A stretch of 64,000 bases of DNA, taken from Arenicellaceae bacterium (GTDB lineage Bacteria; Pseudomonadota; Gammaproteobacteria; Arenicellales; Arenicellaceae). Made by a program: the position numbers and the translations under genes. Numbering within the stretch: the first letter of the stretch is position 1; each line of letters begins with the position of its first letter. Positions 48,568 through 64,000 of this stretch are shown in pieces. A model generated the notes under the pieces. The model saw only the letters and a program-made list of their open reading frames with translations. It had not been told where the DNA came from and did no database searches. The stretch spans positions 62,001-126,000 of the forward strand of contig JAQWNC010000002.1 in assembly GCA_029246505.1 (NCBI GenBank). The letters run 5' to 3'.

Positions 48568-49566
48568 TTAAGATGCTTTCTTGAGTTCCTGTAAGGCGCC
48601 AAACACTCTTTCAGCAGTCGCAGGTAGTGTCGTAATCCGAACCCCGACCGCATCATAAATCGCGTTGCAGATCGCGGCAGCCGTTGGAACCGCCGTTGGC
48701 TCACCCGCACCTTTTGCACCAAATGGCCCTGTAGGATCATAATTGTCCACCAAACCAACTTCGAGCTCAGGCATATCCAAACTGGTAGGCATAATATAAT
48801 TAGTCAGATTTGGATTAATTTGTCTGCCATCGTCGGCAAACAAAATCTCTTCTTGCAGAGCAAAACCAACCCCCATGGAGATTCCACCCTCAATTTGACC
48901 TTCAACCAACATAGGGTTAATTGGCGTTCCACAATCGTGTACAGCCACCATACGCTTAACCTCAACCTCACCCGTCTCATCATCTACTTCGACGTCTGCA
49001 ATCTGAGTAGCGTACACATAAGTGTTAAAAGGTTTACCTTGACCGGTTTCAGGGTCCATCTCTACCGTCGGAGGATTATAAGATGCACTACCAATAGATG
49101 GAGTACCAATCACCGCCTCACAGTGCTGTGAAACTTCATCAATACCTAAAGATTTTGAAGGAAATCCAAGAACTTCGATTTTACGATCAACTGCCTTTAA
49201 TTGGTCGACTGGAACACCCAATAAAGGTCCAGCCCCCTCAAATAAAATTTGTCGTGCCTTCTCTGCAGCCGATAATACCGCGTTACCAGTCACGTAAGTC
49301 GTTCTACTGGCGATAGCACCATAATCCATTGGCGTTGTGTCAGTATCAGCCGAAACAACATGTACATCGTCTGTAGCGATACCAAGAGCTTCAGCCACTA
49401 TTTGACCTAGTACTGTTAATGCTCCCTGACCGGTTTCTACTGTGCCAGTCAGTACCGTAGCCGTTCCATCTGTATTAACCTTAACAGTAGCGGCACTGGG
49501 ATTTGCCATTACGGTAAACCCAATCGGGTACCACATACAGGCCATACCGCGTCCTTTTTTAATCAT
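48568..49566 (-). CDS. Molybdenum hydroxylase, medium Mo-binding subunit (C-terminal part of the large chain)
   Basis: The roughly 332-residue protein covers the second half of a xanthine dehydrogenase-family molybdopterin subunit. It has GRGMACMWYPIGFTV at the start, then LTGTVETGQGALTVLGQIVAEALGI, VHDCGTPINPMLVEGQIEGG, and GAKGAGEPTAVPTAAAICNA with the catalytic Glu of the GxGE motif. The ATG at 49566 overlaps the TGA of the preceding gene (ATGA), so it is translationally coupled. A TTG at 49584 is the longer alternative. Joined to the 470-residue protein, the two equal one normal Mo subunit of about 800 residues. The split resembles NdhL/NdhM of Eubacterium barkeri nicotinate dehydrogenase. 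Confidence 0.88.
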   Translation of the reverse strand: MIKKGRGMACMWYPIGFTVMANPSAATVKVNTDGTATVLTGTVETGQGALTVLGQIVAEALGIATDDVHVVSADTDTTPMDYGAIASRTTYVTGNAVLSAAEKARQILFEGAGPLLGVPVDQLKAVDRKIEVLGFPSKSLGIDEVSQHCEAVIGTPSIGSASYNPPTVEMDPETGQGKPFNTYVYATQIADVEVDDETGEVEVKRMVAVHDCGTPINPMLVEGQIEGGISMGVGFALQEEILFADDGRQINPNLTNYIMPTSLDMPELEVGLVDNYDPTGPFGAKGAGEPTAVPTAAAICNAIYDAVGVRITTLPATAERVFGALQELKKAS

Positions 49567-50975
49567 GCCTCTGACTCCTGCCAACCAAATCGCTCGCTTG
49601 CCTGATTCAATGACTCTTTCAAAGCAACACTCTGTAAACGTTGACTAGTTGGACTCGAAGAACCATCGCTAAACGCATTCTTTAACCTTATCTCTAATGG
49701 GTTCATCCCCAGCTTTTCAGCAATGGTGTCCATTTGCGACTCATAAGCAAAGCAGACCTGCGGCGCACCAAAGCCTCGCATAGCGCCTGTGACTGTTTTA
49801 TTAGTATAGACCGCATAGGCCTCTACATAGATATTCGGAATATTGTACGGCCCTGGAGATAGTATCGAGCCTTTACCTATAGTTGTTCCAGTCCAAGAAC
49901 AGTAGGCACCACCATCGAGAAGAATGTGTATCTTACGTGCGACTAGCGTGCCGTCATTCATTACGCCAGTCTTGTAATCCATCACGAACGGATGTCGAAT
50001 GGTCGAAGACACAAATTCATCACCACGGGTATATACCGCTTTTACAGGCCGCCCTGTCTTTCGTGAAAGCAATGCAAGTATTGGCTCATTGGTAATTTCA
50101 TTTTTACCACCAAAGTTTCCGCCAACAATTGTTCCGACTAATCGAATTTTGCTCTGTGGAATATCGAGAGTACGTGCAATATCCTGGCGGCCTAATGTAA
50201 TTCTACCTAGGCTCGACCAAATGGAAACGCGGCCATTACCATCCCATGAAGCAATCGATGCATGTGGCTCTAGCGGTACATGCTCAACCATCTGGGTAGT
50301 AAACCGTTCTTCAAACACGTGATCACACTCGGCAAATGATTTTTCCACATCCCCTTTCTTAATAACCTTACTTGCGTATACGTTAGTATCCCCACCGTGA
50401 ATCCGTGGTGAGTCATCACCAAAGGACTCCACCACATCAAACAATGGCTCTAATGGCTCATATTTAACCTTGATCTTAGATAGCGCCTCTTCTGCCACTT
50501 GCTCCGAAACAGCAGCTACTGCAGCCACGCCATCGCCACGATGTCGAACAATCGTATCGGCAAGAACTGGTTGGTCTTGTAACGTTGGCCCAAAACTATT
50601 GGTTGGAATCTCTTTACCCGTAAGAGTAGCGAACACACCTGGCATTGCTTCGGCCGCACTGGTATCAATACTAATAATCTTCGCGTAAGCGTACTCGCTA
50701 CGGAGAATCTTCGCATGAATCATATGAGGGAATTTTATGTCATCGATATACTGTGTTTGCCCCAATCCGTGTAGACGACCATCAGGTCGGGTAGCCCGTT
50801 GACCAACCGCCTGAGTATTCATTCTAGACTCGTGCTGCGGAAACTCACGTGGATAGGTAACTGGATTATCTGTAGGAACTTTATGAGAATCTTTTTTATC
50901 TATGGGAGTTGACGTTTCCTTAGCCGTTATCGCAGTCTTATCGGCTTTATTAAGATTTTTCATTCTTGTGTTCAT
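49563..50975 (-). CDS. Molybdenum hydroxylase, large Mo-binding subunit (N-terminal part)
   Basis: The 470-residue protein is the first half of a xanthine dehydrogenase-family Mo subunit. After a polar N-terminal extension of about 60 residues comes the a/b hammerhead domain (GQTQYIDDIKFPHMIHAKIL). The first Mo domain follows with VGGNFGGKNEITNEPI and TGAMRGFGAPQVCFAYESQM. The protein ends GWQESEA, exactly where one-piece homologues continue into the second Mo domain. No Tat or Sec signal is seen, so the enzyme is likely cytosolic. It is the third gene of the FAD, FeS, Mo, Mo order. The substrate is unknown. Confidence 0.88.
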   Translation of the reverse strand: MNTRMKNLNKADKTAITAKETSTPIDKKDSHKVPTDNPVTYPREFPQHESRMNTQAVGQRATRPDGRLHGLGQTQYIDDIKFPHMIHAKILRSEYAYAKIISIDTSAAEAMPGVFATLTGKEIPTNSFGPTLQDQPVLADTIVRHRGDGVAAVAAVSEQVAEEALSKIKVKYEPLEPLFDVVESFGDDSPRIHGGDTNVYASKVIKKGDVEKSFAECDHVFEERFTTQMVEHVPLEPHASIASWDGNGRVSIWSSLGRITLGRQDIARTLDIPQSKIRLVGTIVGGNFGGKNEITNEPILALLSRKTGRPVKAVYTRGDEFVSSTIRHPFVMDYKTGVMNDGTLVARKIHILLDGGAYCSWTGTTIGKGSILSPGPYNIPNIYVEAYAVYTNKTVTGAMRGFGAPQVCFAYESQMDTIAEKLGMNPLEIRLKNAFSDGSSSPTSQRLQSVALKESLNQASERFGWQESEA

Positions 50976-50986
50976 TAGCCTAGCCC

Positions 50987-51478
50987 CTAAAAAGTGTTTG
51001 ATTGTGGATATTTATCTGAACTCATAACACGACCAGCGCCTTCGATCGCCTCGATGATCTTAGTATAACCAGTGCAGCGACATAGATTCCCTGATAGCGC
51101 ATCCTTAATCTCATGCCGAGATGCCGTTGGATTTTTGTCGAGCAAGTTTTTGGCCGACATTATCATTCCAGGGCCACAAAATCCGCATTGTAACGAACCT
51201 AGCTCCTCGAATGCTTCTTGAATCGGGTGAACTCCCTGTGAATCAGCCAAACCTTCGATAGTCGTAACATCCCTTCCCGCTGCACGTGCAGCGAGCATAA
51301 GGCATGAATTATATGACTCACCATCAACGATAACCGTACAAGTACCGCAGTCACCAACATCGCAACCCAACTTAGCTCCGGTAAGCATAAGATGCTCACG
51401 CAAGAACTTGAGTAAAGTCGTCTCGGGCGGGCAATCCGCCGATTTCCATTCACCATTAACTGTTAATTCAACTAACAT
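50987..51478 (-). CDS. Molybdenum hydroxylase, 2Fe-2S subunit
   Basis: The 163-residue protein has a plant-ferredoxin-like N-terminal cluster with C39, C44, C47 and C59 (GCDVGDCGTCTV...NSC), and a C-terminal helical cluster domain with C98, C101, C133 and C135 (CGFCGPGM...LCRCTGY). This is the exact pattern of CoxS/NdhS-type subunits. It passes electrons from the Mo centre to FAD. It starts 18 bases after the FAD subunit and ends 11 bases before the large Mo subunit. Confidence 0.95.
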   Translation of the reverse strand: MLVELTVNGEWKSADCPPETTLLKFLREHLMLTGAKLGCDVGDCGTCTVIVDGESYNSCLMLAARAAGRDVTTIEGLADSQGVHPIQEAFEELGSLQCGFCGPGMIMSAKNLLDKNPTASRHEIKDALSGNLCRCTGYTKIIEAIEGAGRVMSSDKYPQSNTF

Positions 51479-51496
51479 AACTAAGACAACTCCCGA

Positions 51497-52366
51497 TTAA
51501 CTTTCCCGCGCAATGCGGATTGATTCTTTTAAGACGCGCTGAGTAAAAACTTTAATAATCTGGCGTCGATAATTTGCTGAGGCTCTAAAATCATCGATAG
51601 GCCTAGATTCCGATACAGCCAACTCTGCTGCTTCGTTAATAACATCGTCAGTTACTGACTTACCGGCTAAAAACGCTTCGGTCTTAACCGCGCGTAATGG
51701 TACCGGCGCGACCGCGCCTAATGCCAATCGTGGTTCAAGAATTTTACCATCCTTATCCAACCATAGCGCAGCTGCACCGTTTACTAGAGCAAGAGCTTGA
51801 CCTTTTCGTAACCCATGTTTTAGGAATGCCGAGGGTTTACCAAGCGATGCCTTGGGTATGAATATACTTTCGAGCAGTTCACCAGGTTTAAGAGCGGTTT
51901 TACGGGGCCCAACGAAAAAATCCGCAACTGGCATCTCACGCGAGCCAGCCAGCCCCGTTACTATCACTGTAGCGTCTAACACCATAATCGAAGGCGCGCT
52001 ATCCGCAGAAGGTACACAGGTTACGAAGTTTCCACCAATTGTACCTAGGTTACGTGTTTGCACCGCACCTACGGTGTGAGCCCCATCAATAACTGCCGGC
52101 ATTTTTTCCTGAAAAAGAGAAGAAGCCATAATCTCACTAAAGGTAGTCATACTACCAAGGCGCACGCCTTTGGAAGTTTCCTCGATACCTCGAAATTGGG
52201 GAATACCCGAAACATCAATCAAAAGGTTTGTGTTTCCAGCGTTATGTTTTAGGTCAACAACTAGGTCGGTACCGCCGGCAAGCAGCCGTGCGGTTTCACC
52301 ATTTTCTACAAGAAGCGCTACAGCTTCTTCAGCAGAAGATGGTGCAATATATTCAAATGGTCTCAT
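51497..52366 (-). CDS. Molybdenum hydroxylase, FAD-binding subunit
   Basis: The 289-residue protein is of the CoxM/CutM/NdhF type. The start MRPFEYIAPSSAEEAVALL, ARLLAGGTDLVVDLKHN near residues 28-44 and the FAD-binding TRNLGTIGGNFVTCVPSADS near 104-123 are hallmark motifs. C-terminal ASANYRRQIIKVFTQRVL is the CO dehydrogenase flavoprotein tail. It is the first subunit gene of the operon; a TATAAT sits about 155 bases upstream. Confidence 0.95.
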   Translation of the reverse strand: MRPFEYIAPSSAEEAVALLVENGETARLLAGGTDLVVDLKHNAGNTNLLIDVSGIPQFRGIEETSKGVRLGSMTTFSEIMASSLFQEKMPAVIDGAHTVGAVQTRNLGTIGGNFVTCVPSADSAPSIMVLDATVIVTGLAGSREMPVADFFVGPRKTALKPGELLESIFIPKASLGKPSAFLKHGLRKGQALALVNGAAALWLDKDGKILEPRLALGAVAPVPLRAVKTEAFLAGKSVTDDVINEAAELAVSESRPIDDFRASANYRRQIIKVFTQRVLKESIRIARES

Positions 52367-52521
52367 CAGTATCTTCCCTAAGGCCTTAAGGCAGTCCGTT
52401 GTGAAATTGATTGTGCTTCACTCGTCCAACCACCGACTTTAATTAAGTTTAAAAGTAGATTTTTACTCACGTCCAGAAATCCCCTAAAAATTAGCTACGG
52501 TTAGCAACACAGATTCACATC

Positions 52522-52550
52522 ATTATACACCGATACCCTCCTTGAAAGAA
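52522..52550 (-). promoter_or_regulatory. Possible promoter of the Mo hydroxylase operon
   Basis: On the minus strand a perfect TATAAT (52522-52527) is followed by G and preceded at 17 bases by a poor -35 (TTCTTT). It lies in the 268-base gap between the symporter and the FAD subunit, and would allow separate transcription of the enzyme genes. Confidence 0.35.
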
Positions 52551-52634
52551 GAGCCGAGCCTCTGTTATAATCGCCTACAAAACAATGGTTTACGCCAAAG
52601 TATAGCCTCTTCAGCGCACTCATTGTCTAGACAA

Positions 52635-54158
52635 CTAAATTTTCTTGCTTGGTCGAAACTCCTCGTCGAGCGCTGCTCTAATTCGTGTAACTGCAGCCGA
52701 ATCTGGCGCATCTGTATAACGACTCACTAGCAATGCGACAGGTACATTTACGACTAAGCCCCAAAATGAAGGATCGTAGCGAACTCCTGCCGGCAGAAAG
52801 TCACGGCCATAAAATCGCACTGTAAACGAAGCAATCAAACCCGCCATAATACCGCAGGTAATACCAGCTTTAGTGAACCAGACGCGTTTCATGGGCACCG
52901 TGACCGCCAGCACCGCGGGCAACAACTGTACAATCATTGAAGCCGTTATGCCGATCATCATTGTAACCAGACCCCAGTCCTTATCGGCTGCCAGTACAGT
53001 AATGACAACAAGGAAAAAAACAATCAGACGACCTACTTTGATGTAATGACTGTCAGGTGAGCCTTTCTTAATAAACTTGGAGTACACGTCCTTGGTTAAC
53101 ATTGCTGAATTGGCATTAGTATCTGCATCAAGTGATGACATACCTGCGGCAAGGCCACCAGCCACTAATACCCCGGCAAACCAAGCCGGCGCATGTTCGG
53201 CAAGCAAGGTTGGGAACGATGCATCAGAGTTGACGATATCTGGGTAATAAGCGAAAGCTGTAAAGCCGATAACCATCGCAGGCAAAAACAAAACCATCAG
53301 ATAGAAACCAACCGTTAATCCGATTTTCTGTACTGTCTTCACGTCTCGTGCCGAATAATAGAACATGAAACTGCGCGGTAAAATCGCCCAATAGAACGCT
53401 ATACCAAACACAGGCCAGGTAAGCCACCACTGCTGTGTCGCCAAGCCTTTACGCCCAGGTAAGGTCAGCATCGACGGATCAATCTCCTTAACTTTGTTAA
53501 ATAATGCCAACAGGTCGCCATCTATCAGAGTCAGGCACCAGTACCCAGCCGCCCAAATGGCAATAAACATCCAGATCGCCTGTGCAACAGTCGTCCAGGT
53601 AACACCACGAATGCCGCTGGTAGTGACGTATATAAACACTAAAAACCCCATTATCAGAGTCGCTGCAAATTTCGTAATATGGTTCTCCGTTCCTGCCGAC
53701 AATAATATTGCAGGCCCAGTAATGTTGGCTGTCATTAACGGAATGCAGCACGATAGGATGTAGAGGGCAATAAATGCTCTAAATTTCCCATCGCCAAAGT
53801 AATCCGTGAGCATGTCTGCTGGCGTGATGTAGTTAAATTTACGACCTAAACAGGTGATTCTGGAGCCGACATAGTAAATCATCACCAGAGGGGTAAAAAC
53901 GGTCCAAAGTATATTGGCCGCAAAGGCGACACCATGCGAGTGGTAGAAACCCATCGACCCTGGTATTGCAAAAGCTGTGTGAAAGCCACCAGCCATACCA
54001 AGATAGAGAACAAGGAAACCAAAGCCGGGGCCAACTTTAAAATAGTCGTCCATTCGATCGTTGGATGCCTTGGTCCACTTCCCGGTACCGATCCAAAGAA
54101 TAAATACGGCATAAACCGCTACGATAATAATTGTGTACTGCCAAGATTCTAAATTCAT
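52635..54158 (-). CDS. Sodium:solute symporter
   Basis: The 507-residue protein has about 13 TM helices. It carries SSS-family patterns such as MDDYFKVGPGFGFLVLYLGM near residues 36-55, TSGIRGVTWTTVAQAIWMF near 165-183, and AGGLAAGMSSLDADTNANSA near 318-337, the latter near the sodium-binding helix 8. It imports an organic solute with Na+. It overlaps the small membrane protein upstream by 4 bases and precedes the Mo hydroxylase genes on the same strand, so it may import the enzyme's substrate (inference). Confidence 0.92.
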   Translation of the reverse strand: MNLESWQYTIIIVAVYAVFILWIGTGKWTKASNDRMDDYFKVGPGFGFLVLYLGMAGGFHTAFAIPGSMGFYHSHGVAFAANILWTVFTPLVMIYYVGSRITCLGRKFNYITPADMLTDYFGDGKFRAFIALYILSCCIPLMTANITGPAILLSAGTENHITKFAATLIMGFLVFIYVTTSGIRGVTWTTVAQAIWMFIAIWAAGYWCLTLIDGDLLALFNKVKEIDPSMLTLPGRKGLATQQWWLTWPVFGIAFYWAILPRSFMFYYSARDVKTVQKIGLTVGFYLMVLFLPAMVIGFTAFAYYPDIVNSDASFPTLLAEHAPAWFAGVLVAGGLAAGMSSLDADTNANSAMLTKDVYSKFIKKGSPDSHYIKVGRLIVFFLVVITVLAADKDWGLVTMMIGITASMIVQLLPAVLAVTVPMKRVWFTKAGITCGIMAGLIASFTVRFYGRDFLPAGVRYDPSFWGLVVNVPVALLVSRYTDAPDSAAVTRIRAALDEEFRPSKKI

Positions 54159-54403
54159 TCTCCTTTCGCCTCCGCGTCGTCTTTAGCAATTTTAGTGCCT
54201 AATATCCAGCAGCCAATCAGCCAAACAAAACCCCAACCACTACACCAAACAAAAACCAATGGCATACCAAACACTGGAATGGGCTCATTCACCCACCATG
54301 TGCCTATGTAAACCATCAAAAAACAAATAATAAACCAGGCCATATAGAGCTTTTCCCAAAGCGTTCTTGGCGTAAGATGACTTGTGTACTCAGGTTCTGT
54401 CAT
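54155..54403 (-). CDS. Small two-helix membrane protein, symporter partner (DUF3311-like)
   Basis: The 82-residue protein has two TM helices (LYMAWFIICFLMVYIGTWW and FVWCSGWGFVWLIGCWIL) separated by a short loop with PVFGMPLVF. Short proteins of this form (DUF3311 or YhdT-like) often precede SSS symporters. Its TGA overlaps the symporter ATG, indicating translational coupling and probable complex formation. Confidence 0.8.
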   Translation of the reverse strand: MTEPEYTSHLTPRTLWEKLYMAWFIICFLMVYIGTWWVNEPIPVFGMPLVFVWCSGWGFVWLIGCWILGTKIAKDDAEAKGE

Positions 54404-54952: not shown

Positions 54953-56014
54953 GTGAATCACGGCACACTCTTACCTGTAGCGCTCGTATCTATAAATATT
55001 TTAGCATCTGTAACCGTTCAGGCACATCACTCGCCGAACCTGCACTTTGATCGTAGTAATATTATAGAAATTACCGGTCGGCTGACCGATATTGACTGGC
55101 AAAACCCTCATACGCAATTTACTGTTACAACTTCTGCTGAGGACGGAAGCATAGCTATTTGGCTTATTGAAGGTAGAGGCGCAAGCCAATTCACACGCGC
55201 TAGAGTTACTGCTGACTTCTTCGAAACCGGCAGTAATATCAGCTTCGCGGGATTTAGAGGCCGACGTAATAGAACGGCAATGTTCGCGACCAATATTCTG
55301 CTGGCCAACGGCCAGGAACTCGTAGTTGATAGCTTCACCACTCCCCGCTGGTCGGCAGACACAGCACTGTTACTGAGCGCGAGTAGTCAAAAAGGTACCG
55401 CAAAGAACGCACCCCTTAATCCCAAAGATATCTTTCGAGTCTGGAGCCCGGATCGCTCTGATCACGGCATCGATGGCACAGGTAGAACCTTATGGTTAGA
55501 CAACTACCCATTGACTGAGTTTGCTCAAACCACACAATCCAACTGGGACCCTGTTAACGATAACCCCTATATCAACTGTCAAAATGGCATGCCGGCAATG
55601 ATGGACTTGGCAACGCCCATAGAATTTGTGCAAGACGGCGATAACATTGTTTTATACCTTGAGGAACAGGATGCAGTACGTCATATTCGTATGACTCCCC
55701 AATCCAGTAACGAGGACGAAGCAGCAAGCCCTTATGGACAATCGGTCGGCCGTTGGGATAGCTCCACCCTTGAAGTAACAACAACAAAAATCGACTGGCC
55801 TTGGTTTGATCAAGCGGGAATTCCGCAGACAGCGCAACTCCAGCTGGTAGAGAGATTTACTCCGTCTGCCGACGGACTCGTTCTGCGTTATCAACTTACC
55901 GCAACAGACCTAGCAGTCTTTACAGAAATAGTTCTGCTTAATCGAGCTTGGGTTTGGGACCCAACCGAAAAACTTAGACCTTACAACTGTGTATGGGATC
56001 GTAGCGACCTATGA
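54953..56014 (+). CDS. Secreted DUF6152 protein with a fused second domain
   Basis: The 353-residue protein starts at GTG (CAGGAGACC upstream) and has a signal peptide ending VQAHHS. Residues about 24-125 form a DUF6152 domain (AHHSPNLHFD, ITGRLTDIDWQNPHTQF, IWLIEGRGASQFTRARV). Residues about 145-353 match in layout the separate 220-residue protein encoded at 57165-57827: Cys-xx-GMP, SxGxWD-SSTLEV, and LVERFTPSADGLVLRYQL with WVWDPTEKLRPYNCVWD at the end. So this is a fusion of two proteins that are separate genes nearby. The function is unknown; the domains sit next to Mo oxidoreductase genes. Confidence 0.82.
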   Translation: MNHGTLLPVALVSINILASVTVQAHHSPNLHFDRSNIIEITGRLTDIDWQNPHTQFTVTTSAEDGSIAIWLIEGRGASQFTRARVTADFFETGSNISFAGFRGRRNRTAMFATNILLANGQELVVDSFTTPRWSADTALLLSASSQKGTAKNAPLNPKDIFRVWSPDRSDHGIDGTGRTLWLDNYPLTEFAQTTQSNWDPVNDNPYINCQNGMPAMMDLATPIEFVQDGDNIVLYLEEQDAVRHIRMTPQSSNEDEAASPYGQSVGRWDSSTLEVTTTKIDWPWFDQAGIPQTAQLQLVERFTPSADGLVLRYQLTATDLAVFTEIVLLNRAWVWDPTEKLRPYNCVWDRSDL

Positions 56015-56090
56015 AAAAATACTGTAAGTAAAACGGCCAAACGCACTCTAAAACTCAAGTAAAGGCACATTATTTCTGTAACGGAAAAAC

Positions 56091-56650
56091 CAGAGCTTAA
56101 TTATTGCTTACTTCACTGGCAGGTGTAATCATACCTTCGCCGGCGATGATCGCTGCAAACGAGAAGTCAGCAAAATCACCATTGGCTAAAACGATATTAT
56201 AAAGCCACAATACTTTTCTATCACTACGGCTGGGTGAACCGTTAATAGTAAGTTTATCCCCTGGACTTATAAGGCTTTCTCTAATCCCTGCACGCCTTAG
56301 ATTGCTTGCGCCATGTATAGCAGCTGTCCATTCCACCTCATTTCCTTGTTCATCAATAGCCATAAACACCAATTGGGAATGTGGATTGACTAGCTTGAAC
56401 GATACGGCGGTTACGTCAATAAAATCTAGCGTTGTTTCCATATCAAAGTATGCATCCCTGCTGTGATGAGATGCTGCTGGGTGTACGCCAAGCAAACTAA
56501 CAATCACAACGAGCAATGTGGTGGCTATATGTTTCATTATTTAATTCCTTAATCTACATACGGTAATTTACGCCGGTTCACAAAGCAACTGTATTCGGGG
56601 CAGCACTGATACTCCAACATCATTCCGGGGCTAACTCCCGGCCCGCACTG
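56091..56650. repeat. Tandem duplication, arm A (with deletion)
   Basis: Matches 56681-57240 at a constant offset of 590 bases, covering the DUF6152 gene, the spacer and the last about 70 bases of the 220-residue protein gene. After 56650 the arm jumps to 19 bases (56652-56670) that match 57929-57947 (18 of 19), implying that most of a second copy of the 220-residue gene was deleted. Confidence 0.85.
56097..56537 (-). CDS. Secreted DUF6152 protein, copy A
   Basis: The 146-residue protein has a signal peptide ending AASHH, followed by the DUF6152 pattern: SHHSRDAYFDMETTLDFIDV, VNPHSQLVFMAIDEQGNEVE, HGASNLRRAGIRESLISPGD and LTINGSPSRSDRKVLWLYN. It is highly similar to copy B 590 bases away. 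Between the copies is a relic of the upstream gene's C-terminus, so this is one arm of a tandem duplication. The HH at the mature start could bind a metal; that is inference. Confidence 0.85.
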   Translation of the reverse strand: MKHIATTLLVVIVSLLGVHPAASHHSRDAYFDMETTLDFIDVTAVSFKLVNPHSQLVFMAIDEQGNEVEWTAAIHGASNLRRAGIRESLISPGDKLTINGSPSRSDRKVLWLYNIVLANGDFADFSFAAIIAGEGMITPASEVSNN

Positions 56651-56680
56651 ATATACTACCTACGCTTCCAAGGTAAAAGC

Positions 56681-57240
56681 TGGAGCTCAATTATTAATTA
56701 TTTCACTGGCAGGTGTAATGATTCCTACGCCAGTTCTGATCGCTCCAAACAGGTCTGCGACATCGCCGTTGGCTAACACTACCGTATACAGCCACATTGC
56801 TTTTTTGTCGCCACGGCTAGGTGAACCCCTAACGGTAAGTTTATCTCCCGGGCTTATAAGACTTTCTCTAATTCCGGCACGTCTTAGATGGCTTGCGCCC
56901 AGTATACCCGCAGTCCATTCCACCTCATTGCCCTGTTCGTCTTTGGCCATAAATACCAGCTGGGAATGTGGATTCACTACCCTGAAGGATACGGCGGTTA
57001 CGTCAATGAACTCAACCCTTGCTTCCATATCAAAGTAGGCATCCCTGCTGTGATGAGATAATACTGGGTGCACGCCAAGCAAACTGACAATCACAACAAG
57101 CAATGTGGTGGCTATATGTTTCATCATTTAATTCCTCAATCTATACACGCTAATTTACGTCGGATCAAAAGCCACTGTATTCGGGGTAGCACTCATACTC
57201 CAATATCATCCCATCCTGCGCTAACTTCCGGCCCCCACTG
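56681..57240. repeat. Tandem duplication, arm B
   Basis: The intact counterpart of 56091-56650. It continues into the complete 220-residue protein gene and its upstream spacer as far as about 57947. Confidence 0.85.
56687..57127 (-). CDS. Secreted DUF6152 protein, copy B
   Basis: The 146-residue paralogue of copy A has identical domain order: signal peptide ending VLSHH, SRDAYFDMEARVEFIDVTAV, VNPHSQLVFMAKDEQGNEVE, LTVRGSPSRGDKKAMWLYT. Substitutions are scattered and mostly conservative, so both copies appear to be under selection for the protein. It lies 37 bases downstream of the 220-residue gene on the same strand, probably in one operon with it. Confidence 0.86.
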   Translation of the reverse strand: MMKHIATTLLVVIVSLLGVHPVLSHHSRDAYFDMEARVEFIDVTAVSFRVVNPHSQLVFMAKDEQGNEVEWTAGILGASHLRRAGIRESLISPGDKLTVRGSPSRGDKKAMWLYTVVLANGDVADLFGAIRTGVGIITPASEIINN

Positions 57241-57827
57241 AAAACATATGGCTCCTCGTAATATGTCGGATCAAATATTTCGGCCGTGTACATTAACGTA
57301 TCGTCGGTAAAAGTATATCGTTCAACAGTGTAAGTATCCGGCGCACCCGAGAAAGGCATTCCCGTATGCCACACCATATTTTCTGGCGAAAGGTACGTCG
57401 TTTTCACAACAAGGGTGTCCTCTTCCCATTGACCCACTGAGAAACCACCTAATGTTGGCCACCAGTTATCAGGGGCTTGTCTTCCGTCCGTGAATATTCT
57501 CCGAACCATGTGAAAGTGCTCGTGCAAAAACACAACCTGATGATCTTGCTGGATTATCTCTAACGGGTAAGGATCGTAAATACCAAGCGGTACACCTGGC
57601 ATAATGCATTTTAAAGTTGGGTCATTCTCTTCCGAGAAATTCTCGAATGCGGCCTGCCCTGCTGGTGTCAGTCTGATATCTTCCGATGGCGGATGCCCCG
57701 TACCTGCACCTCTGAGAGGCTCCCAAATTCCGTCGATACTCGGTGCCGCGGCCGCCAGCTCCGTTACGGCTAAACCAATAACGGTTATTGCCACTGAGAA
57801 AGTTGAAAGTCGAATTTTAATCATCAC
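57165..57827 (-). CDS. Secreted partner protein of DUF6152 (unknown family)
   Basis: The 220-residue protein has a signal peptide ending ELAAAAPS. The mature part begins IDGIWEPLRGAGTGHPPSED, then has LKCIMPGVPLGIYDPYPLEI, VFLHEHFHMVRRIFTDGRQA, GGFSVGQWEEDTLVVKTTYL and a C-terminal ILEYECYPEYSGF. It corresponds in layout to the C-terminal domain of the 353-residue fusion at 54953-56014. It is divergent from the iorAB-like genes with a 140-base shared promoter region. The biochemical role is unknown. Confidence 0.8.
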   Translation of the reverse strand: MMIKIRLSTFSVAITVIGLAVTELAAAAPSIDGIWEPLRGAGTGHPPSEDIRLTPAGQAAFENFSEENDPTLKCIMPGVPLGIYDPYPLEIIQQDHQVVFLHEHFHMVRRIFTDGRQAPDNWWPTLGGFSVGQWEEDTLVVKTTYLSPENMVWHTGMPFSGAPDTYTVERYTFTDDTLMYTAEIFDPTYYEEPYVFSGGRKLAQDGMILEYECYPEYSGF

Positions 57828-57967: not shown

Positions 57968-58468
57968 ATGACTATTGTTACCCTACGCGTCAATGGCGCG
58001 TCCCACGAAGTTGATATCGACCCGGCCACACCTCTTCTATATGTGTTACGTAACGACCTTGAGCTGCGTGGCCCACGTTTTGGCTGCGGACTCGGCCAGT
58101 GCGGGGTATGTACTATAATCGTTGATGGGGCTGCAGTGCGTTCTTGCACCATACCGGCTTCACAGGTTAGTGGCGAAATAACTACACTCGAAGGTCTCTC
58201 CACAAACGGCATGCTGGATCCGCTACAGCAGGCCTGGATCGACGAGCAGGTTCCACAATGTGGTTATTGCCAGAACGGTCAGATTATGACAGCCAAAGCG
58301 CTACTTAACCAAAACCCGAACCCGACCGACATTGAAATCCGTACAGGAATGGAAGGCGCATTGTGTCGATGTATGACTTACTATCGTATTCAGGCGGCGA
58401 TAAAACGTGTAGTCCAAGGTGCAGTGGTATCTGCCACGCCTGAGACTGATCAAGGAGCAGACGTATGA
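57968..58468 (+). CDS. IorA-type 2Fe-2S subunit of a molybdenum oxidoreductase
   Basis: The 166-residue protein has two 2Fe-2S cluster sites: C40, C45, C48 and C60 (GCGLGQCGVC...SC), then C98, C101, C133 and C135 (CGYCQNGQIM...LCRCMTYYR). The CxYCQNGQ and CRC(M)TY variants are typical of the isoquinoline 1-oxidoreductase (IorA) branch. The stop codon overlaps the start of the Mo subunit gene by 4 bases (ATGA). It acts as a small electron-transfer subunit; no FAD subunit accompanies it. Confidence 0.95.
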   Translation: MTIVTLRVNGASHEVDIDPATPLLYVLRNDLELRGPRFGCGLGQCGVCTIIVDGAAVRSCTIPASQVSGEITTLEGLSTNGMLDPLQQAWIDEQVPQCGYCQNGQIMTAKALLNQNPNPTDIEIRTGMEGALCRCMTYYRIQAAIKRVVQGAVVSATPETDQGADV

Positions 58469-60840
58469 GTAAAACACTGCAGCTTCCAAAAATAATCGAA
58501 GATGCACTCCTTCAAGCTAATCCATCCACTTCCCGTCGCAATTTTCTAAAGTCCTCAGGAGCCCTGATACTAAGCGTCGGCGTAAACTCTATCCCGGGCG
58601 GCAAAGTTCTCGCGCAAACCACAGACAGCGGTCCCTACACAGATCCTGACTTTCTACAGCTGGATACCTGGATCGTAATCCATCCGGACAATACTGCGAG
58701 CTTCTTCGTGGGCAAAACCGATGGTGGTCAGGGGACTGGCACTGCATTTCGACAAATGATGTGCGACGAGCTCGATATTGCTTACGATAAGACCAATCTC
58801 GTCATGGGCAGCACTGATACAACGCCTGACCAGGGTGGTTCAGGCGGTTCCGACGGTGTTGAGCGGGATGGCTGGCCGATGCGGCGAGTTGCTGCTGAAG
58901 CTAGACGAGTCCTACTAGGGTTAGCATCCGATTATTTAGAAATACCAATCACCGAGCTTGTGGTGAGCAACGCAATAATCACAAGCAACAACGACCCATC
59001 TAAGATAGTTACCTACGCTGAACTGATCGGCGGAAGAACATTCAACGTTTCACTTACAGGAGAAAACGTCAATGCCACCAGTGGCGTAGCAAACGTCAAA
59101 CCGGTTAGCGACCTCAACGTTATAGGTCAGTCCATTCAACGTTACGACATCCCTGCAAAGGTCGACGGGTCGCTGATATGGGCTGTCGATGTGAAACTGC
59201 CCGGCATGGTCCATGCGCGAAACGTCCGGCCACCACTCGTCGGTGCCACTCTACGCAGCATCGATGAGTCATCAGTCGCCGACACCCCAGGTTTGATCCG
59301 CGTGGTAAGCCGCGGTAACTACGTGGCCGTAGTCTGCGAGCGCGAAGAGCAAGCCATCAGTGCTGCCCGACAATTACAAGTTGATTGGGCAGCACCATCC
59401 GAAGCACCTTTTCCGGCATCGGACGATCTATTTGACTATATGCGTAGCGCAACCATTGCAGCCAATAGCGCTTCAGATATAACGGGCGACCCCGATTCAG
59501 CACTGGAAGCCGCAGAACATCTCATTGAAGCCGAGTACGAAGTACCCTATCAGGGACATACAGCGATTGGTCCTGCCCACGCTCTGGCCGACCCGTCCGA
59601 TGGTCAAATGACGATTTACTCGAACGATATAAAATCTTATGGCTTGCGTAGAGGAGTTGCGAAGTTTTTAGGTATAGCAAAAGAACAAGTGCGGGTGATT
59701 TACATGGATGGACCTCAAGTTTATGGCCGTACCGCAGCCGACGACGCTGGCTTTGAGGCTGCGTTTCTTGCTCATGAGCTCGGGCGACCAGTCCGCGTAC
59801 AATGGATGCGAGATGAGGAAACCGCTTGGGACACGAAGGGTCCTGCATACACTTTCAAGCTACGAGGGGGGCTCGATCGCCAAGGTAAACTCGTAGCACT
59901 CGAATACGCTGCACGTGCTGCCGACTACAATCACCTTGGATACAACCAGGCAGACACAGTCTTGATTGCTCAGCTAATGGGCATACGCCCCTCTGAACCA
60001 GCTAAGGGTCGTTCTGTAACGCCGTCTATTAAATACGCCATTGCGAATCAGCGTATGACCGCCGATATCGTTAGCCTCCCTTTGATCTGGGGGACGCCAC
60101 TTCGTACCGGTAATCTTCGCGACCCTAACGGGCCGCAGGTGACATTTGCATTCGAATCCTTCATCGATGAGCTAGCCGCTGTGGCAAGCGCCGACCCGGT
60201 TCAGTTCCGGCTCGATCTTTTAACCAGCAGTGATGAGGACGACCTGCTCCGGCGGGCACGTTCTATCGCCACCCTCAATGCCGCGGCTGAAAGCTTCGGC
60301 TGGGAGACGCGACCGTCACCGAATCCGCAGATATCAGAGCCTGGTAGTCCATTCGTCACTGGGCGCGGTCTCGGCTACACCTTCCGTAACGGCACGGTCG
60401 TAGCGTTAATAGCAGAGGTCGAAGTAAACCGCACCACTGGGCATATCTGGGTCAAGCGGCTGGTGTGCGGCCATGACTGTGGTCTCGTGATCAACCCAGC
60501 GGGACTCAGCCATACCGTCGAGTGCGGCATATTACATGGCCTAAGTAGAGCGCTATGGGAAGAAGTCCAGTTCGACACTAAAAAAATCAAGAGTGTCGAT
60601 TGGGTGTCGCACCCAAGCCTCCGGCATTCCGACATACCGGAAACCATCGAAATCGTTCAGGTCAACGGCGACCCTAATCCAGACCGCCCTGATCTACCCC
60701 ACTATGGTGCGGGTGAAGCAAGCCATAAACCGGTTATAGCAGCGGTTGCGAATGCTATTTATGATGCGACTGGCGTACGCCTGCGTCGACCACCTTTCCG
60801 TAAGGAACGAGTTTTAGCGGCAATCCACGCACAAACTTGA
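58465..60840 (+). CDS. IorB-type molybdopterin subunit with Tat signal
   Basis: The 791-residue single-chain Mo subunit carries a twin-arginine motif SRRNFLK (residues 23-29) and hydrophobic stretch to VLAQ near 51, so it is exported folded to the periplasm, probably with the IorA subunit. Mo-domain motifs: GKTDGGQGTGTAFRQMMCDE, YMDGPQVYGRTAADDAGFEA (degenerate form of the GGxFG motif), and catalytic Glu in YGAGEASHKPVIAAVANAIY near 750. The first Mo domain variant and the lack of an FAD subunit fit IorAB-type enzymes that use membrane or periplasmic electron acceptors. The substrate is unknown. Confidence 0.93.
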   Translation: MSKTLQLPKIIEDALLQANPSTSRRNFLKSSGALILSVGVNSIPGGKVLAQTTDSGPYTDPDFLQLDTWIVIHPDNTASFFVGKTDGGQGTGTAFRQMMCDELDIAYDKTNLVMGSTDTTPDQGGSGGSDGVERDGWPMRRVAAEARRVLLGLASDYLEIPITELVVSNAIITSNNDPSKIVTYAELIGGRTFNVSLTGENVNATSGVANVKPVSDLNVIGQSIQRYDIPAKVDGSLIWAVDVKLPGMVHARNVRPPLVGATLRSIDESSVADTPGLIRVVSRGNYVAVVCEREEQAISAARQLQVDWAAPSEAPFPASDDLFDYMRSATIAANSASDITGDPDSALEAAEHLIEAEYEVPYQGHTAIGPAHALADPSDGQMTIYSNDIKSYGLRRGVAKFLGIAKEQVRVIYMDGPQVYGRTAADDAGFEAAFLAHELGRPVRVQWMRDEETAWDTKGPAYTFKLRGGLDRQGKLVALEYAARAADYNHLGYNQADTVLIAQLMGIRPSEPAKGRSVTPSIKYAIANQRMTADIVSLPLIWGTPLRTGNLRDPNGPQVTFAFESFIDELAAVASADPVQFRLDLLTSSDEDDLLRRARSIATLNAAAESFGWETRPSPNPQISEPGSPFVTGRGLGYTFRNGTVVALIAEVEVNRTTGHIWVKRLVCGHDCGLVINPAGLSHTVECGILHGLSRALWEEVQFDTKKIKSVDWVSHPSLRHSDIPETIEIVQVNGDPNPDRPDLPHYGAGEASHKPVIAAVANAIYDATGVRLRRPPFRKERVLAAIHAQT

Positions 60841-63662: not shown

Positions 63663-64000
63663 ATGCGAGCACTATTGGATAACGTAAAACACACTACCGT
63701 TATAATCACCCTGCTGATAGTTTTTCTGCCGGTAAATGACAGCGCGGTACAGATCCTGCCTTCTCCAGAATACACTGTTGATCCCTATTGGCCAAAAGTA
63801 CCGTTTCTTAATGCTTGGTTGATACAAGGTGTACCGACCATCACTACCGATGCCAATGACCATATCTTGGCCATCAGCCGAACCGACGATCTACGCCCCG
63901 ATGAGTCGATGGCAACCTATGACCCACCGTGTGGCGACTGCTACGTCGCAGCTCCAGAGATTCTTGAATTTGATAGTGAAGGAAACCTACACAATGCCTG
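63663..64000 (+). CDS. Start of a secreted NHL/propeller-like protein (cut by the window edge)
   Basis: The first 112 codons are visible; the gene runs off the end. A signal-anchor (TTVIITLLIVFLPVNDSA) is followed by VDPYWPKVPFLNAWLIQGVP and TITTDANDHILAISRTDDLR, then CGDCYVAAPEILEFDSEGNL. This resembles the first blade of six-bladed NHL-type propellers (as in peptidyl-amidating lyase-like proteins). The rest of the protein is needed for a firm call. Confidence 0.7.
   Translation, partial: MRALLDNVKHTTVIITLLIVFLPVNDSAVQILPSPEYTVDPYWPKVPFLNAWLIQGVPTITTDANDHILAISRTDDLRPDESMATYDPPCGDCYVAAPEILEFDSEGNLHNA

Follow-up and report, generated by a model that had tools for sequence, protein, structure and literature searches.

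A histidine that becomes N-terminal when the signal peptide is removed can chelate metal, as has been proven for DUF4198 proteins and studied for DUF6702, two of the four N-terminal-His families (with Ang-1 and Ang-2) found by signal strapping, and N-terminal-His DUF proteins have been proposed to serve as metal sequesterases (PMC12537917). The copper pairs CopC-CopD and YcnI-YcnJ likewise place an exported N-terminal-His protein beside a membrane protein (PMC8424229). Many divergent paralogues within single genomes are documented for SAR202, where expanded catabolic families, flavin monooxygenases among them, were proposed to act on recalcitrant organic matter (PMC6946804).

Here, we compare these systems with a gammaproteobacterial locus built from two domains, DUF6152 (PF19649; hereafter D) and a second domain that is unnamed in profile libraries (hereafter P). 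DUF6152 is a family name without an assigned function. With DUF4198, DUF6702, Ang-1 and Ang-2, D shares a histidine predicted to be exposed by cleavage, a second conserved ligand candidate, export, and a function that was unknown at discovery. The many divergent copies of D-P per genome recall the SAR202 expansions, although the SAR202 families are known enzymes whereas the D-P family is uncharacterised and exported. A word search of PMC12537917 returned no PF19649, OB-fold or His-His, and our literature search found neither DUF6152 nor DUF6644 mentioned, nor any paper joining the histidine brace and the OB-fold. The family record of DUF6152, as visible, contains no hundredfold expansion and no P partner. 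Although the individual parts resemble known kinds, the joining of D to an exported FABP-like partner and the recurrent expansion of the pair thus seem to be undescribed in the searchable literature.

Fused and separate copies of the two domains

Within the window (the whole stretch of 64,000 nucleotides that was analysed), an open reading frame on the forward strand (54953..56014) encodes a 353-residue D-P fusion comprising a signal peptide, DUF6152, a 60-residue linker and P. PF19649 matched residues 18-106 of this protein at 49 bits (curated cut-off 27), while our own HMMs placed D at residues 23-102 and P at residues 163-346 (55439..55990 for the P domain, forward strand). The predicted signal peptide of 24 residues (54953..55024, forward strand) ends in VQA, with small residues at positions -3 and -1, and is followed by two histidine codons (55025..55030, forward strand) representing the predicted mature N-terminus. 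An Asn-Pro-His motif bearing a third histidine occupies mature residues 27-29 (55103..55111, forward strand).

Beside the fusion, the two domains are encoded separately on the reverse strand. A P protein of 220 residues (57165..57827) lies 38 bp upstream of a first 146-residue DUF6152 protein (56687..57127; PF19649, 50.1 bits), which is followed by a second of the same length (56097..56537; 51 bits), both with the predicted mature start HHSR. These two D copies are 84% identical over the DUF6152 domain, corresponding to one recent tandem duplication, and the resulting order of the split genes, P-D-D, is the reverse of that in the fusion. Further along, on the forward strand, are the 2Fe-2S subunit of an XDH/IorA-type oxidoreductase (57968..58468; Fer2_2, 3.5e-28) and its 791-residue molybdenum-binding large subunit with a Tat signal (58465..60840; MoCoBD_1, MoCoBD_2 and a weak TAT_signal match), for which no NCBIfam equivalog cut-off was reached; both are neighbours outside the module.

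A preliminary description of this DNA had claimed that DUF6152 and its neighbour domain occur both fused and split, which the open reading frames, PF19649 matches and alignments bear out. Residues 163-344 of the fusion align by BLASTP with the 220-residue protein (26% identity, E=1e-8), and the two retrieve each other in whole-genome searches (E=7.6e-6 and 1.1e-5). The profile comparison of the C-terminal half of the fusion with the 220-residue protein, put forward in the same description as a check, was significant, a profile of fused P domains (n=24) aligning with one of separate P proteins (n=17) over 187 columns (hhalign probability 100, E=9.7e-46).

The further claim that a fused and a split version stand side by side held only in part: both forms are present and homologous, but they do not represent alternative versions of a single gene, since the fused and split P of the window fall on separate deep branches of the P tree. 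The same tree rules out a recent split of the window's own fusion into the adjoining genes. Across the tree, fused or split status requires five changes, at least three of which are forced by well-supported branches. The nearest fused and split counterparts were found outside the window, where an adjacent pair of genes, C7:129163 (D, 60%) and C7:128403 (P, 56%), supplies the best matches for both halves of a single fusion, C27:36056, as in a Rosetta-stone relationship.

Pairing, co-occurrence and expansion

Searches of the whole genome (2.64 Mb, 97.5% complete, 0.22% contamination) returned 100 DUF6152 and 85 P matches. Open reading frames called in 823 kb of stretches around these matches and classified with iterated profiles yielded 62 D-P fusions, 34 D proteins, 21 P proteins, one P-P and one P-D. 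Together these genes amount to 99 kb, or 3.8% of the genome, and are distributed over 20 contigs; the fusions are mostly just 20-35% identical to that of the window. The window's locus is one of about 60 fusions and about 20 split pairs genome-wide. Contamination as a source of the 100 copies was rejected because they are spread over 20 contigs, some adjoin housekeeping genes (e.g. a gatB-like gene at C4:75590, assigned by reading), the contamination estimate is just 0.22%, and 40 copies are present in another genome of the genus. Given this share of a 2.64-Mb genome, the role of D-P must be central to the life of these uncultured bacteria.

Separate P genes are closely tied to D. Nineteen of 22 overlap a gene encoding D or are at most 70 bp from one, the partner being a D-P fusion in two cases and a separate D gene in the others. 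Every intact one has a D-containing gene at most 90 bp away or overlapping, mostly on the same strand. The remaining P open reading frames are remnants, one situated just after a stop-broken D stretch (C27:5965) and another a fragment (C16:56135). At 21 loci from other organisms, P adjoins 20 D genes, organized as P-D-P, P-P-D or D-P fusions.

The preliminary description had also proposed a survey of co-occurrence in other genomes. Among 398 genomes of the phylum, with copy number per genome scored on the best 12 matches, D was identified in 42, mostly as one copy, and P in 12, all of which were among the 42 with D (chance probability 4e-13). Most genomes of the phylum thus possess zero or one copy, and none was detected in 17 genomes of the same family or 12 of the same order. 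Expansions of about 40 to at least 150 copies were found in other Gammaproteobacteria, in Alphaproteobacteria and in Acidobacteria, and across 18 genomes, mostly with such expansions and including one with at least 150 copies, the numbers of D and P rise together (Spearman 0.77). Because the two domains are paired along the chromosome, co-occur in 12 of 12 P-bearing genomes, increase jointly in copy number and have a fused counterpart for an adjacent pair, there is strong support for the suggestion of joint action by D and P, to which the homology of the fused and split forms and the recurrent changes between them also contribute. Neither of the two outcomes named in the preliminary description as refuting it was observed.

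Predicted structures and conserved histidines

AlphaFold2 modelled the mature fusion with confidence (pLDDT 89.3, pTM 0.87), and D is predicted to be an OB fold, with Foldseek matches to the OB folds of SSB, PolD and LysRS. A likeness of the whole fusion to LysRS was rejected: only the OB domain matches, and two-domain alignments gave an rmsd near 19 Å.

Of 96 D proteins, all but one, whose start is truncated, carry two adjacent histidines directly after a signal-peptide-like leader. Position -1 of these leaders is occupied by A (76), G (12), S (6) or P (1), and position -3 mostly by A, V or S, so mature D is predicted to begin with His-His. In the Asn-Pro-His motif, His is present in 95 of 95 proteins, Pro in 94 and Asn in 88, and the only invariant residues across the 95 are the two N-terminal histidines and the histidine of this motif. 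The D genes of other organisms likewise retain His-His at every locus that includes the D start, and all 18 D proteins examined from genomes without P possess both His-His and Pro-His. Compared with the published families, in which an N-terminal His is found in 79% of DUF4198 and 65% of DUF6702 proteins, the 95 of 96 in D represents a more consistent feature; whereas a beta-sandwich was reported for DUF6702 and the anglerases, D is predicted to adopt an OB fold (PMC12537917).

This pattern suggests that D binds a metal, putatively at its mature N-terminus. Histidine-brace proteins possess a conserved internal histidine, for which that of the Asn-Pro-His motif (95 of 95) is a putative counterpart as ligand; the LPMO and CopC families, however, are Ig-like beta-sandwiches, in contrast to the OB fold indicated for D by Foldseek. 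The N-terminus of a canonical OB fold is at the opposite end from the loop that follows strand 1, and it is therefore doubtful that all three histidines meet on one ion within one D domain, or that His1 and His29 of a single domain form a classical brace with its T-shaped N3 geometry around copper.

For the separate 220-residue P protein (AlphaFold2 pLDDT 91.2, pTM 0.88), nearly all of the best 50 PDB matches by Foldseek were FABP, CRABP or CRBP proteins, the others being close FABP relatives, among them UnaG and a SAHS protein (probability 0.97-1.00; TM-score by target 0.50-0.66; E values modest, 7e-4 to 4e-2). The FABP/CRABP barrel consists of ten strands with a helix-turn-helix lid. In the P model, DSSP assigned nine strands, and strands 1 and 2 are separated by a pair of helices that recalls the FABP lid. 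P is predicted to be an FABP/CRABP-like barrel, which may hold a small-molecule pocket. The domain is otherwise strongly divergent, with five invariant or nearly invariant residues (C, R, G, E and C), of which the two cysteines probably form a disulfide, as would suit an exported protein.

While the predicted barrel of P and its two helices resemble the FABP/CRABP/CRBP proteins, P differs from them in being exported, in being larger, in its two invariant cysteines and in lacking a detectable sequence relation. The 220-residue protein matched no Pfam family even at E=1, and sequence searches of Pfam, NCBIfam and the PDB with P gave nothing reliable: kinship with FABP emerged neither in Pfam among 70 P domains nor with any PDB chain by profile. 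A THAP4-type heme barrel was considered and set aside as too weak, being matched by two of the 70 members at E=0.014. D-P is not assigned to either the histidine-brace or the FABP families.

Genomic surroundings and proposed function

Genes directly beside D or P were found to begin with signal-peptide-like starts more often (75 of 121, by a crude rule) than distant genes (70 of 190; p=1.6e-5). These neighbours include eight NHL propellers, six Amidohydro_3 proteins, five cytochromes c, four sulfatases, four TonB receptors and three arylsulfotransferases, none of which was among the families seen at least twice in 121 distant genes. No copper gene was prominent among the neighbours.

We tentatively propose that D-P combines an N-terminal-His metal module (D) with a lipophile-binding barrel (P), diversified for many organic molecules outside the cytoplasm, a reading that we hold to be plausible rather than probable. 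D and P would constitute one exported functional unit, made either as a single chain in which a linker joins D to P or as a pair of chains encoded by adjacent genes. D would hold a transition metal via its N-terminal histidine, copper being the first candidate, and the P barrel with its two-helix lid would hold one small lipophilic or aromatic organic molecule, so that the unit, periplasmic or extracellular, would place a metal centre beside the captured molecule. The approximately 100 divergent copies, beside different exported enzymes and receptors, may in turn serve different molecules, as in the SAR202 enzyme families. The sequences themselves establish the homology, fusion, pairing and co-occurrence of the domains, their export-type leaders, the invariant histidines and the expansion; the folds are those of predicted models, and we infer the metal, the ligand and the joint action on that ligand. 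The findings give a family name that lacks a function three testable claims, namely that the mature N-terminus binds metal, that the barrel holds a ligand, and that the two chains behave as one. A bolder version, in which D-P proteins are exported single-metal oxidases or oxygenases whose copper, carried on the His-His OB domain, acts on the barrel-held molecule, each genome having 40-150 specificities and several phyla using them to degrade dissolved organic matter, is speculative and in our judgement improbable.

Alternatively, D might be a metal scavenger or metallochaperone, which would take copper or another metal at His-His and hand it on as CopC does to CopD, with P serving for docking or storage and the exported enzymes as clients. 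In 17 of 18 genomes without P, the gene directly downstream of D encodes a small DUF6644-like membrane protein, an arrangement resembling that of copC-copD and, like CopC-CopD and YcnI-YcnJ, setting an exported N-terminal-His protein beside a membrane protein, a likeness of gene layout. The proposal of N-terminal-His DUFs as metal sequesterases (PMC12537917) points in the same direction. The D-P form in the window's genome, in contrast, has no such membrane partner, no recognisable DUF6644 being present in that genome (the search gave no match anywhere). Furthermore, one genome would hardly need 100 divergent chaperones, most neighbour families (e.g. NHL propellers, amidohydrolases and TonB receptors) are not copper proteins, and P is left unexplained. 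We regard this alternative as unlikely, while giving it serious weight.

Deserving similar weight, and similarly unlikely, is a metal-free carrier, in which P would convey lipophilic compounds through the periplasm and D would be an OB domain with a structural or docking role, its histidines engaging a partner or stabilising the N-terminus. Such a role is consistent with the predicted FABP-like fold of P, its strong divergence with few invariant residues, and the TonB receptors adjoining some of the pairs. It sits poorly, however, with the three invariant histidines of D, two of them at the predicted cleavage site, which are kept amid variation and also in D proteins without P.

A mainly non-adaptive expansion, by tandem and dispersed duplication with decay and without a hundredfold functional diversity, might account for the four or more D sites that are truncated or interrupted by stop codons (C1:66503, C27:5592, C16:56708 and C21:70030), the P remnants and the 84%-identical tandem duplicate of the window. 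Nearly all copies are nevertheless intact and deeply divergent with their invariant residues retained, and similar expansions have arisen in unrelated lineages, which makes this explanation decidedly improbable.

The link to a Tat-exported molybdenum oxidoreductase, inferred in the preliminary description from the window, was unsupported as a general rule: of about nine XDH-family molybdenum oxidoreductases in the genome, just that of the window directly adjoins D/P, the neighbours of D/P elsewhere are varied exported proteins, and a general accessory role to such enzymes was rejected on this count, the consistent neighbourhood of an IorAB-associated accessory protein being absent. That D-P is a dedicated accessory of the adjoining enzyme, e.g. 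for substrate delivery or maturation, as the start of gene 57968 at 140 bp from the separate P gene might suggest, is very improbable given about 100 D domains for about nine enzymes and one direct neighbourhood, the absence of MoCoBD from the listed neighbour families, and the divergence of the two transcripts.

A scan of the contigs of other genomes identified an "uncultured Cellvibrionales bacterium" as the closest named relative, at 73%.

DUF6152 copy number across genomes

The largest DUF6152 expansions among the genomes examined were found in two Rhodospirillaceae, Ww577, with at least about 150 of these domains in a 3.3 Mb genome, and Ww273, with about 136 in 3.5 Mb. Among the DUF6152 sequences of the window's own genome, those at C1:66503, C27:5592, C16:56708 and C21:70030 (contig:position) are truncated or carry internal stop codons, and are copies in decay. 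The same genome also encodes, at C10:88687-92628, a relative of the window's run of one partner-domain gene and two DUF6152 genes, its partner protein being 52% identical to that of the window; upstream, on the shared strand, lies a gene that on reading resembles a TonB-dependent receptor.

In 18 genomes of the phylum that lack the partner domain, single-copy DUF6152 proteins were identified with a mature start of HHGW or similar, and a DUF6644-like membrane protein is encoded directly downstream in 17 of these genomes. No function has been described for either family.

Other genes of the window

Two overlapping ORFs of 470 and 338 residues (48568-50975, minus strand) share between them the molybdenum-binding large subunit of one XDH-type enzyme; the break appears to reflect a frameshift, whether in the gene itself or introduced during assembly. 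At 49563-54403 (minus strand), an XDH-type enzyme with large, 2Fe-2S and FAD subunits adjoins a sodium symporter of the SSF family and a small protein resembling DUF3311, possibly forming a cluster for uptake and oxidation. Of one further exported protein only the start is present (63663-63998, plus strand) before it continues past the window end; on reading, it resembles the NHL/6-bladed-propeller proteins that neighbour several pairs of DUF6152 and its partner domain.
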